DNA from: Mesorhizobium sp. BR1-1-16
GTDB taxonomy: Bacteria > Pseudomonadota > Alphaproteobacteria > Rhizobiales > Kaistiaceae
Assembly (NCBI RefSeq): GCF_020165495.1
Contig: NZ_JAIUIE010000003.1
Location: forward strand, 248,001-312,000
DNA length: 64,000 nt
Reading direction: 5' to 3'
Made by a program: the position numbers and the translations under genes
Notes under the pieces: generated by a model
Told to the model about the DNA's origin: nothing
Database searches by the model: none
What the model saw: only the letters and a program-made list of their open reading frames with translations
In this document: positions 34,551-52,832 of the stretch, in pieces
How positions within the stretch are numbered: the stretch's first letter is position 1
How the letters are laid out: the number at the start of each line of letters is the position of its first letter

Positions 34551-34664
34551 AAAAAAGACGCCCGTCGGGGAGGAGGTCGACGGGCGTCTCTAGAGAAGGC
34601 GCTGGGCTGGGGAGGAGATCAGCCGCGCGCCGATCGCGGGGAACGAGGGAGGAGGTTCGTTCCC
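34551..34664 (-). ncRNA. CUCCUCCC triple-hairpin RNA downstream of DUF1127 gene (copy A)
   Basis: Read on the minus strand, three tandem stem-loops begin 16 bases after the DUF1127 stop. Hairpin 1 (34639-34664): 8-bp stem, loop ACCTCCTCCC. Hairpin 2 (34605-34624): 5-bp stem, loop ATCTCCTCCC. Hairpin 3 (34556-34589): 12-bp stem, loop ACCTCCTCCC, followed by a T6 tract, so it is also the terminator. The stems differ while the loops are the same. Such loops downstream of DUF1127 genes define the 'cuckoo'/CcsR RNAs of Alphaproteobacteria, which are co-transcribed with the gene and processed, and whose loops can pair with Shine-Dalgarno-like sequences. Copy B at 50398 has the same plan. Confidence 0.85.
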
Positions 34665-34680
34665 GGCGAATTCTCGAAAC

Positions 34681-34833
34681 TCAATATCCGGCGGAGCGCT
34701 TGGCGACCTTGGAGATTTCGCCGCGTGCGATGCCGAGGTCATCGAGCTCGCGGGTCGTCAGCCGATTGAGCTCATTGCAGGTCTGGCGATACTTCAGCCA
34801 GCTCTTGTAGGAAGCAACGATGCCATTTGCCAT
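34681..34833 (-). CDS. DUF1127 small protein (copy A)
   Basis: A 50-residue basic protein starting MANGIVASYKSWLKYRQTCN and ending VAKRSAGY. The family core is LNRLTTRELDDLGIARGEI. DUF1127 proteins are small arginine/lysine-rich, RNA-associated factors in Alphaproteobacteria; in Rhodobacter one (CcaF1) is made from the same transcript as CcsR RNAs and affects RNA processing and stress response. Here too a three-hairpin RNA follows directly. A GGACC-type purine patch precedes the ATG, but no strong Shine-Dalgarno is seen. It is 56% or more identical in the core to the copy at 50237. Confidence 0.93.
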   Translation of the reverse strand: MANGIVASYKSWLKYRQTCNELNRLTTRELDDLGIARGEISKVAKRSAGY

Positions 34834-34918: not shown

Positions 34919-35097
34919 CACTCGGTGAAAAGTCATGGCTGGCCTGCGTTTGATGCAGAGCAATATCACATTGCCGCTCTATGTTGCGCCGCACAATCGC
35001 CATGTTCCGAGGTCTTCAAGGAGACTGCTGCATCGTGCCGGATTCTCGCCACATCGCCGGCGCGGTTGAGCCGCATCTCGGCATGAGCCTCCCGCGA
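34919..35097. other. Gap with no recognisable gene
   Basis: The 264 bp between the DUF1127 start (34833) and the DUF2000 stop (35098) hold only the candidate promoter described separately. The remaining bases show no convincing coding pattern, repeat or terminator. Confidence 0.5.
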
Positions 35098-50042: not shown

Positions 50043-50142
50043 AGCGCCGGTTGAGCGAACCTCATGCTGCATCGCACCATGATCGGCGCTGACTTTGCTG
50101 CTTTGCACTGGTCGCAGCCCAGCCATGCGCTTTTTCCGTCTG

Positions 50143-50168
50143 CTCGAATAGCAGGACCCGGCCTATCT
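50143..50168 (+). promoter_or_regulatory. Candidate stress promoter of DUF1127 copy B
   Basis: CTCGAA (50143-50148), 14 bases, CTATCT (50163-50168), 69 bp before the DUF1127 start codon. The downstream part is in the word GGCCTATCTT, also found before copy A at the same relative place. The form resembles heat-shock sigma (RpoH) promoters (CTTGAA, 13-15 bp, CCCATnT-like). Confidence 0.45.
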
Positions 50169-50236
50169 TTCAGTCAACAAGAACGGACGGACGGCAACAG
50201 CCGGCGCCCATCGAAGATCGAAGGAAAGGTGCCGAG

Positions 50237-50383
50237 ATGAACATCGTCAATGGCTTCAAGAACTGGCGTAAATACCGGGAAACCTACAATGAGCTTTCCC
50301 GCCTGACCAAGCGTGAGCTTGCCGACCTCGGCATCAACCGTGCCGACATCGACCAGGTCGCTCGCCGCTCCGTCGGCTACTGA
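50237..50383 (+). CDS. DUF1127 small protein (copy B)
   Basis: A 48-residue basic protein, MNIVNGFKNWRKYRETYNEL with core LTKRELADLGINRADI and end VARRSVGY. It shares length, core and C-terminal S-x-GY with copy A at 34681. GAAAGG lies 10-15 bases before the ATG. It is followed after 17 bases by a three-hairpin CUCCUCCC RNA on the same transcript. DUF1127 proteins are linked to RNA turnover, phosphate and stress responses in Alphaproteobacteria. Confidence 0.94.
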   Translation: MNIVNGFKNWRKYRETYNELSRLTKRELADLGINRADIDQVARRSVGY

Positions 50384-50397
50384 GTTTCAAGGCTTCG

Positions 50398-50506
50398 CGC
50401 GGACGGTCCTCCCCCGTCCCTGCGATCTGGCAGCAGGCGAACCTCCTCCCTCGCCTGCTTGCCCTTCATGAGAACGCCCGCCGATCTCCTCCCCGGCGGG
50501 CGTTTT
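50398..50506 (+). ncRNA. CUCCUCCC triple-hairpin RNA downstream of DUF1127 gene (copy B)
   Basis: Three tandem stem-loops. Hairpin 1 (50401-50419): GGACGG/CCGTCC stem, loop TCCTCCC. Hairpin 2 (50432-50459): 9-bp stem AGCAGGCGA/TCGCCTGCT, loop ACCTCCTCCC. Hairpin 3 (50473-50504): 11-bp stem with GACGCC-like GC core (AACGCCCGCCG), loop ATCTCCTCCC, followed by TTTT, hence the terminator. Loops 2 and 3 are identical to loops in copy A although the stems share no sequence. This is the architecture of 'cuckoo'/CcsR RNAs: a DUF1127 gene, then repeated CUCCUCCC hairpins. They are probably released by RNase E processing and could pair with Shine-Dalgarno regions. Confidence 0.88.
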
Positions 50507-50839
50507 CGTGTTCAGAGCAGTTTGAGGCCCCGGACGAGGTCATTCGCCGCCCGCCTTGCCCGCGGCATCCTTGAGGCGCTGGATCGTCTGCCCCTGACGC
50601 GCCGCTCATCCGCACCGGCATTTGGACCTTCGGCAATGGCGGGCTGAAAGACGGAAAGGCCGCTCGACGAATACCAAGCAAAACGGCGAGGTCTTGCCAC
50701 CTAAGCGCTAAAACGCCTCATGGAGCGTTCTCGCGATCGGCGGAACGTTTGCCGGCAGACGGGCATTCTCATCGTGCCGTGCTGCGCTGGGTGATTTCAT
50801 TTCCTCTCCGGCGCCAAAGCAGCGGCAGACAGGAACAAC
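50507..50839. other. 333-bp gap, no convincing gene
   Basis: Short open frames on both strands lack start signals and natural composition. A minus-strand reading near 50530-50590 ends QTIQRLKDAAGKAGGE-stop, which could be the tail of a decayed gene, but it is interrupted just upstream. The region before 50840 presumably holds the promoter of the next gene; no clear -35/-10 pair was found. Confidence 0.4.
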
Positions 50840-51378: not shown

Positions 51379-51427
51379 TGGCGCGCCCTAGGGGAATCGA
51401 ACCCCTGCTTTCGCCGTGAGAGGGCGT
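51379..51427 (-). other. 3' fragment of tRNA-Glu(CTC), probable attachment site
   Basis: Read on the minus strand: anticodon loop CTCTCAC (anticodon CTC at 51418-51420), anticodon stem 3' side, variable region, T-arm AGGGGTTCGATTCCCCT, acceptor strand AGGGCGC, discriminator G and encoded CCA (51379-51381). The 5' half is missing: no matching acceptor strand (GCGCCCT) occurs upstream. A TCTAGTG...CAGGAT stretch at about 51440-51460 vaguely resembles a D-arm but is wrongly spaced. This is the footprint left when an element integrates in the 3' part of a tRNA gene; the integrase gene starts 130 bp to the right. Confidence 0.75.
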
Positions 51428-51554
51428 AATTCAACCGATCCTGACAGCACTAGATTGGCCCTGATCGCATTGAAAAACAATACCTTTCTTTCACACAGCG
51501 TCATGGGGTATCAACCGCTATCGTGTGGTTCTTGTCAACGAATGCGGCAACGAA

Positions 51555-52832
51555 ATGGCTCATCGGAGAAGCTCTCTAGCTTCCAAGTCTTCCCGTGCAT
51601 CTCTACCAGTCTCCGATGCACCCGAGTGGGAAGTGATCAGCCCCGGGCTGCGCCTCGGCTATCGCCGCGGCCGCGGCACGAACGGACGTGGTGGCACGTG
51701 GCTGGCAGCGTCTCGCGAGGACAGTGGAAAGCGTGTGCAGACCCGATTAGGGCGGGCAGATGATCTCGCGGCGGCCGATGGCGCAGCCGTGCTCACGCAC
51801 GAGCAAGCCAAGGACAAGGCCCGCGCCTGGGCAAAGTCATTGCGAGCCGGCAGCTCCGCATCTCCAGCCTTGACCGTAGACATGGTGTTGGACCGCTATT
51901 TCGAGGCCCGCGCCGCCGAAGGAATGAAGTCGCTATACGACGCGAAGTCCCGCGCAAGCACGCACATCCGCCCTCGCCTCGGCCCCCTTCGCGTCTCAGA
52001 TCTCAGAGTTGAGACGATCCGCAAATGGCGAGACGGAATGACGGTGGCGCCGAAGCTCGTGAGAACAGGCAAGTTCGCCAAGAAGCGCAATGTCCGGGAG
52101 GTCGATATGGCTGATCCCGAGGTCGCTCGGCGGCGGCGGGATACTGCCAACCGGACCCTGACGACCCTTAAGGCGGCCCTAAACTGGGCACGCGACAACC
52201 GTCTGGTGGATGACGATACCGCCTGGCGCCTGGTGAAGCCCTATCGAGGCACGACAGCCGCCCGGGTTCGCTTCCTTGCCCCCGACGAGCAGCAGCGGTT
52301 GATTGGGGTCGTTCAGGGTGATCTTGGAGATCTCGTTGCCGCGGCGCTGATGACCGGCGCCCGTTTCAGCGAGTTGGCACGCCTGACCGTCCGCGATTTC
52401 GATGCCGCAAACGGTTCGATCTTCATAGCCGAAAGCAAGAGCGGCAAGGCGCGCCACATCCCGCTCCCTTCAGAGGGACGCCGTTTGTTCGAAAGATTGG
52501 TGGCCGATAAGTCCGCCTCGTCACCGGTGCTGACGCGTAACAACGAGGCCTGGAAGCCGGCAGCATACCAGCGCAGTTTTCAGTCAGCCCTCAAGGCCGC
52601 AGGCTTGGCTGACATCACGCTTCACGAACTCCGGCACTCTTATGCCAGCACCATGGTTCGGGCCGGCGCGCCGCTGATGGTTGTGGCGCAAGCGCTCGGC
52701 CATACGGATACACGCATGGTGGAAAAGCACTATGCCCATTTGGCGCCGTCCTACATCGCCGACACGATCAGGAGCACCGCCCCTAACCTGGCATTGGGTG
52801 ACCGCCCTGCTTTGCAGAACAGCGACTGCTGA
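51555..52832 (+). CDS. Tyrosine-type site-specific integrase
   Basis: A 425-residue integrase. An N-terminal arm-binding region (SPGLRLGYRRGRGTNGRGGTW) and SAM-like core-binding domain (about 105-225) precede the catalytic domain. The active-site residues are all present: R in TGARFSELARL, the HELRH box (HxxR), H in LGHTDTRM and the tyrosine in VEKHYAHL. The frame is open from a GTG at 51525, but the ATG at 51555 (MAHRRSSLASK) looks natural. It lies next to the tRNA-Glu fragment and is probably responsible for insertion of the island. Confidence 0.93.
   Translation: MAHRRSSLASKSSRASLPVSDAPEWEVISPGLRLGYRRGRGTNGRGGTWLAASREDSGKRVQTRLGRADDLAAADGAAVLTHEQAKDKARAWAKSLRAGSSASPALTVDMVLDRYFEARAAEGMKSLYDAKSRASTHIRPRLGPLRVSDLRVETIRKWRDGMTVAPKLVRTGKFAKKRNVREVDMADPEVARRRRDTANRTLTTLKAALNWARDNRLVDDDTAWRLVKPYRGTTAARVRFLAPDEQQRLIGVVQGDLGDLVAAALMTGARFSELARLTVRDFDAANGSIFIAESKSGKARHIPLPSEGRRLFERLVADKSASSPVLTRNNEAWKPAAYQRSFQSALKAAGLADITLHELRHSYASTMVRAGAPLMVVAQALGHTDTRMVEKHYAHLAPSYIADTIRSTAPNLALGDRPALQNSDC

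Follow-up and report, generated by a model that had tools for sequence, protein, structure and literature searches.

The window analysed was a stretch of 64,000 nucleotides from Mesorhizobium sp. BR1-1-16. A DUF1127 gene encoding a 48-aa protein lies on its forward strand at 50237-50383 (PF06568, 53.5 bits; cut-off 23.3), as claimed in a preliminary description made from the letters alone. It is followed on the same strand by a small RNA of the ar14 (cuckoo/NfeR1) family, comprising three hairpins and a terminator, at 50390-50508 (RF02344, 61.9 bits; gathering score 58.8). The RF02344 match begins 6 nt past the DUF1127 stop codon. This gene and RNA are referred to below as copy B. In the predicted fold, hairpin 1 (50395-50425, +) carries the short loop UCCUCCC at 50407-50413, hairpin 2 (50429-50463, +) carries the loop ACCUCCUCCC at 50441-50450, and hairpin 3 (50470-50507, +), which doubles as the predicted intrinsic terminator, carries the loop AUCUCCUCCC at 50484-50493 and is followed by TTTT. 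The 17-base gap reported earlier corresponds to the distance from the DUF1127 stop to the inner stem of hairpin 1, the outer stem of which starts at 50395. The minimum free energy of the three-hairpin fold was -66.2 kcal/mol, against -39.7 kcal/mol (sd 3.5) for shuffled sequences (z -7.56), and none of 200 shuffles equalled it; the three hairpins of the preliminary description, the last with its T run, were thereby recovered.

The loops of copy B were compared with the loop motif of RF02344. Loop 2 contains the full CCUCCUCCC motif; loop 3 differs from it by one base (UCUCCUCCC), and loop 1 has only UCCUCCC. The octamer CTCCTCCC occurs five times in the window, a count reached in 18 of 100 shuffles and not significant by itself, and octamer counting was therefore dropped as evidence. 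What is above chance is that the motif sits in hairpin loops and that the covariance model matches (E 8.7e-9). A tRNA-Glu gene (51379-51450, -; anticodon CTC) and a phage-integrase-family gene (51525-52832, +) lie side by side shortly downstream of copy B and may mark one border of an integrated element.

A second unit of the same plan, copy A, lies about 15.7 kb away in the opposite orientation, as described earlier. It comprises a DUF1127 gene of 50 aa (34681-34833, -; PF06568, 52.5 bits) and an ar14 RNA (34552-34674, -; RF02344, 77.5 bits; z -6.12 for 34552-34690), with a promoter signature at 34934-34962 (-). In order, the loops of copy A are ACCUCCUCCC, AUCUCCUCCC and ACCUCCUCCC, and those of copy B are UCCUCCC, ACCUCCUCCC and AUCUCCUCCC. 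The loops of the two copies had been called equal; they are alike, but the first loop of copy B is three bases shorter than its counterpart in copy A (UCCUCCC vs ACCUCCUCCC). Four ar14 matches (RF02344) and five DUF1127 matches were found in the 5.2 Mb genome, which is of Kaistia type, and a DUF1127 gene lies directly upstream of each of the four RNAs, copy B having the lowest RF02344 score of the four (61.9 bits). Genome-wide scans placed neither an ar14 match nor a promoter-signature match near the fifth DUF1127 gene. Copy B is a separate locus, as proposed, but its designation as a second, independent one was incomplete, since the genome holds four copies. A search for AbcR (RF02345) returned no match in this genome and none in the controls either, and was uninformative.

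Copies A and B are old, separate loci, because the orthologues of each sit beside their own neighbour in relatives. Orthologues of copy B were found in three genomes (G001, G006 and G013), each next to the Usp gene that also neighbours copy B (78, 58 and 59% identity), and orthologues of copy A lie, in six relatives, next to the LysR gene that converges on copy A. The DUF1127 proteins of the two copies share 63% identity over 46 aa, and the earlier statement that no recent simple duplication had occurred held up on both grounds. In the window, the LysR-family gene that converges on copy A lies at about 33.6-34.5 kb (+). Kaistia soli encodes a DUF1127 protein that agrees with the copy B protein at all 48 residues. 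Hairpin loss at relatives' loci, named in the preliminary description as counter-evidence, was not seen at the three orthologous B loci found (L061, L064 and L065), which keep three hairpins with the same short first loop, UCCUCCC. Shared with copy B by all three of these orthologues, this loop is therefore inherited and perhaps selected. A search of the genome contigs with the Usp protein returned no relatives.

Upstream of copy B, a core promoter is predicted at 50140-50168 (+), consisting of CTGCTC (50140-50145), a spacer of 17 nt and CTATCT (50163-50168); TGCTC and CTAtaT are prominent in the genus consensus. Transcription would start near 50175. An LsrB/VtlR-like box, TGCA-N6-GCA, lies at 50104-50116 (+), -71 to -59 from the predicted start, and the last T of the published TGCA-N6-GCAT reads G here. 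The box falls within a longer promoter signature, TGCNNTGCR-N6-GCA-N3-CWGSCATG, at 50099-50127 (+). Further upstream, a conserved box (CATGCTGCATCGCACCATG; genus consensus aAT..TGCa.cGCAacAt, 43 promoters) was found at 50063-50081 (+), about -112 to -94 from the predicted start. The position of this upstream box is that of the NtrC-protected stretch of the NfeR1 promoter, -95 to -121 (PMC10746234).

An alignment of 43 upstream regions from the genus contained a long conserved block, the core of which, TGCR-N6-GCA, was present in 43/43, compared with 9/510 control blocks, equal in length and taken from the same loci. The distance from the start of the box to the start of the -10 element was 59 nt in 40/40 rows in which both were recognised; this count leaves aside three of the 43 rows, two lacking the longer placing motif and one a recognised -10. 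The 5.2 Mb genome was scanned with the signature, allowing up to one mismatch. Four matches were returned, all with 0 mismatches and one upstream of each of the four DUF1127-ar14 units; as the signature was drawn from these same promoters, the absence of other matches is alone informative. A control scan of the genome with the reversed signature returned 0 matches. AGCCATG, taken from the reported Brucella VtlR motif, had been tried first and occurred in 18/56 upstream regions vs 8/331 control blocks; TGCR-N6-GCA described the regions better.

Covariation was assessed with RNAalifold on 36 sequences, chosen by the authors from 71 ar14 places found in relatives. The consensus contained 21 predicted pairs, confined to hairpins 2 and 3, and 15 of these 21 showed at least one pair-keeping double change. 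Hairpin 1 aligned poorly and was absent from the consensus structure. Variable, covarying stems with constant loops, as in RF02344, were thus found for hairpins 2 and 3.

The relatives search covered 41 genomes including the genome itself; RF02344 matched at E <= 0.001 in 32/41 and over the cut-off in 20/41. A DUF1127 frame lay within 400 nt upstream at 59/71 ar14 places. Counted by hand, DUF1127 was upstream at 47 of the 49 over-cut-off places, a few of these being the second unit of a tandem. At L013 (G022) and L022 (G018), one DUF1127 gene is followed by two tandem ar14 units about 200 nt apart. The two exceptions were L019, where the box was present and DUF1127 was not found, and L040, in a same-genus MAG (G013). 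At L040 (G013:C3, 1419-1501), an LsrB-type box with the usual 59-nt spacing to the -10 element is followed at once by ar14, with no DUF1127 gene.

The order-wide search covered 199 genomes including the genome itself, of which 63 matched RF02344, 29 of them over the cut-off. Outside the family of the genome, 45 loci were compared; one place was counted per locus, and an above-cut-off place close to the end of a contig was excluded by choice. The ar14 RNA exists both with and without the gene, because DUF1127 lay within 700 nt upstream at 25/45 of these loci and was absent at 20/45. By family, DUF1127 was upstream at 10/12 loci in f44, 6/6 in f41, 3/3 in f11, 1/1 in f17, 5/19 in f23, 0/3 in f43 and 0/1 in f6. 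The converse was examined with 88 DUF1127 relatives (the best 80 of 290 plus 8 plasmid loci; many are close kin and some are from Kaistia itself). At least two such loops were found within 170 nt after the gene in 18/88, and TGCR-N6-GCA was found within 260 nt upstream in 82/88, compared with 40/262 control blocks from the same loci. The DUF1127 gene and the ar14 RNA are thus separable modules with a similar promoter.

A candidate regulator was sought among the LysR proteins of the genome. A protein encoded near 52614-53225 of contig G000:C23 matched PDB 9hh1, the LsrB of A. tumefaciens (PMC11975290), with 431 bits over 296 aa, the next PDB match being 107 bits. It was picked by eye among 30 of the 32 LysR matches, and its relation to LsrB was tested one way; by this one-way test it is a close LsrB relative and a probable orthologue. 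Among the 30 LysR loci read, the next nearest protein of the genome was 32% identical to it. The LysR protein beside copy A was rejected as the regulator, being far from LsrB (95 bits to 9hh1 vs 431 for the LsrB relative). No NCBIfam model exceeded its cut-off for either LysR protein among the 25 best matches of each.

LsrB activates S. meliloti NfeR1 via TGCA-N6-GCAT at -72 to -57 (PMC10746234). VtlR is the same regulator as LsrB, in other genera. In B. melitensis, VtlR is required for three DUF1127 genes and AbcR2 (PMC12595884). In Agrobacterium, VtlR activates Atu1667, whose small protein product has the Brucella orthologues BAB1_0914 and BAB2_0512 (PMC7486931). The latter report describes Atu1667 as a small hypothetical protein; from its orthology to VtlR-activated Brucella genes we infer that it is itself a DUF1127 gene.

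Candidate targets were collected from the complement of the loops. The loop CUCCUCCC pairs perfectly with GGGAGGAG, which occurs 3-10 nt before an ATG at 45 genome sites, compared with 4 for the reversed pattern, as is expected of any Shine-Dalgarno word. The 45 sites gave 44 loci, two overlapping sites being taken as one, and 36 ORFs of at least 60 aa, seven shorter ORFs having been left out and two overlapping sites sharing one ORF. ABC-transporter components (Pfam) were encoded by 19/36 of the ORFs that follow GGGAGGAG-N3-10-ATG, and 14 of these 19 were solute-binding proteins. The ATGs of L082, L086, L098 and L101 stand in frames open for at least 200 aa upstream and may be internal; two of these were counted as ABC. 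The control was AAGGAGA-N3-10-ATG, built on a Shine-Dalgarno word with a poorer fit to the loops. Its first 30 of 114 sites, on contigs C1-C3, left 24 ORFs after six short ones were dropped, and ABC components were encoded by 2/24 (Fisher one-sided p 3e-4 for 19/36 vs 2/24). With the targets restricted to the contigs of the control sites (C1-C3), the counts were 9/12 vs 2/24 (p 1e-4). Strong Shine-Dalgarno sequences of binding-protein genes may have other causes. Most target candidates of NfeR1 are likewise ABC-transporter mRNAs, two of which were tested and confirmed, and NfeR1 silences mRNAs in trans through three redundant motifs (PMC10746234).

The element itself has already been described in Rfam, and the biology of one member, from S. 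meliloti, is well characterised. RFMSmelA075, with CCUCCUCCC loops, was reported in 2011 as an anti-Shine-Dalgarno RNA present in several copies per genome (PMC3927594), the link to DUF1127 is known as CIN1, and copy B is a further case of both. Like NfeR1/RFMSmelA075 (ar14, RF02344) of S. meliloti, the family has three hairpins with variable stems and CCUCCUCCC loops in several copies per genome; an LsrB-type box appears to lie at the same distance from the predicted start, and ABC-transporter genes are among the likely targets. Unlike in NfeR1, a DUF1127 gene here stands between the promoter and the RNA, and loop 1 of copy B is UCCUCCC only. CcaF1, the DUF1127 protein of the CIN1 locus in R. 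sphaeroides, is co-transcribed with CcsR1-4 and takes part in their maturation (PMC10253847). Copy B resembles this locus in having a DUF1127 gene directly 5' of the RNA, with related small RNA elements following the gene in one unit; CIN1 differs in its four RNAs, 71-aa protein and RpoHI/RpoHII promoter, where copy B has three hairpins, a 48-aa protein and a promoter of the LsrB type. The VtlR-activated small-protein genes (DUF1127 genes of B. melitensis, Atu1667 of Agrobacterium) offer a parallel in the small protein gene and, by analogy, in VtlR/LsrB-type activation, and differ in that here a hairpin tail follows the gene. In a literature search, which covered few subscription papers, LsrB was nowhere linked to DUF1127-ar14 operons, and no paper found dealt with such operons in Kaistia.

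We consider it probable that copy B, like the three other units of this genome, is a DUF1127-ar14 operon, and that it is activated by LsrB and silences ABC-transporter mRNAs. An LsrB/VtlR-type LysR regulator would bind the box near -71 to -59 and probably activate transcription from it. A single transcript would comprise the DUF1127 mRNA and the three-hairpin ar14 RNA, the latter being released by cleavage or persisting as a stable 3' end. The C-rich CCUCCUCCC-type loops would then pair with G-rich Shine-Dalgarno sequences, chiefly of ABC-transporter mRNAs, and this pairing would block translation of the target mRNAs or hasten their decay. The likely role of ar14 is that of an LsrB-activated antisense RNA acting on uptake mRNAs, tuning nutrient uptake at ribosome-binding sites.

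Three other explanations were weighed against this operon. The hairpins could do no more than strengthen the 3' UTR and termination of the DUF1127 mRNA, without acting in trans. The third hairpin is indeed an intrinsic terminator by prediction and the model match starts 6 nt past the stop; but the loops are constant while the stems covary, L040 keeps promoter and RNA at the 59-nt spacing with no DUF1127 gene, 20/45 loci outside the family have no DUF1127 within 700 nt upstream, and NfeR1 of S. meliloti acts in trans (PMC10746234), so that we hold this explanation to be very unlikely. Still less credence is given to the multi-copy decoy proposed in the preliminary description, in which the loops titrate the ribosomal anti-Shine-Dalgarno-binding machinery. 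There are four copies, each with three C-rich hairpin loops according to the family model, and shared mRNA targets of several copies are plausible, which is the part of the proposal that stands. The ribosomal part is unsupported: because the loops themselves mimic the anti-Shine-Dalgarno sequence, they would pair with the Shine-Dalgarno sequences of mRNAs and not with the 16S tail. The enrichment of ABC-transporter genes among perfect complements (19/36 vs 2/24) also fits selective targets better than global titration, and the NfeR1 motifs silence chosen mRNAs (PMC10746234).

A stress module like that of CcsR, in which RpoH would drive transcription and the DUF1127 protein would steer maturation of the RNA by RNase E, as described for CcaF1 in R. 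sphaeroides, is the least improbable of the three, although still doubtful. The gene order is the same, and the association of DUF1127 gene and RNA is the one named CIN1 (PMC10253847); the box conserved in the promoters here, however, is of the LsrB type, and CcaF1 has 71 aa vs 48 aa here. Regulation differs between lineages, because the DUF1127-CcsR operon of R. sphaeroides uses an RpoHI/RpoHII promoter (PMC10253847). A maturation step of the CcsR type, in which the DUF1127 protein would act on the RNA, is compatible with the LsrB-activated operon. DUF1127 proteins may instead work through protein contacts, as with PhoR (PMC12501420).

Taken jointly, the four units of Kaistia could make up a regulon dedicated to a single LsrB-type regulator. 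DUF1127 genes and the NfeR1 RNA, which elsewhere are known as separate LsrB/VtlR targets, would in it have been fused into single operons; we regard the case for this broader reading as evenly balanced. If it is true, a redox-linked regulator would release a small protein jointly with an RNA that silences ABC transporters, and loss of DUF1127, as at L040, would convert the operon to the NfeR1 arrangement. The value of the finding is comparative, in that it provides a genus with several paralogues per genome, a fixed promoter geometry, one DUF1127-less locus and a candidate class of targets. Such loci make the role of the DUF1127 protein for its RNA directly testable, and they may bear on the VtlR/LsrB regulon, where the literature found treats DUF1127 genes and ar14 RNAs as separate targets.
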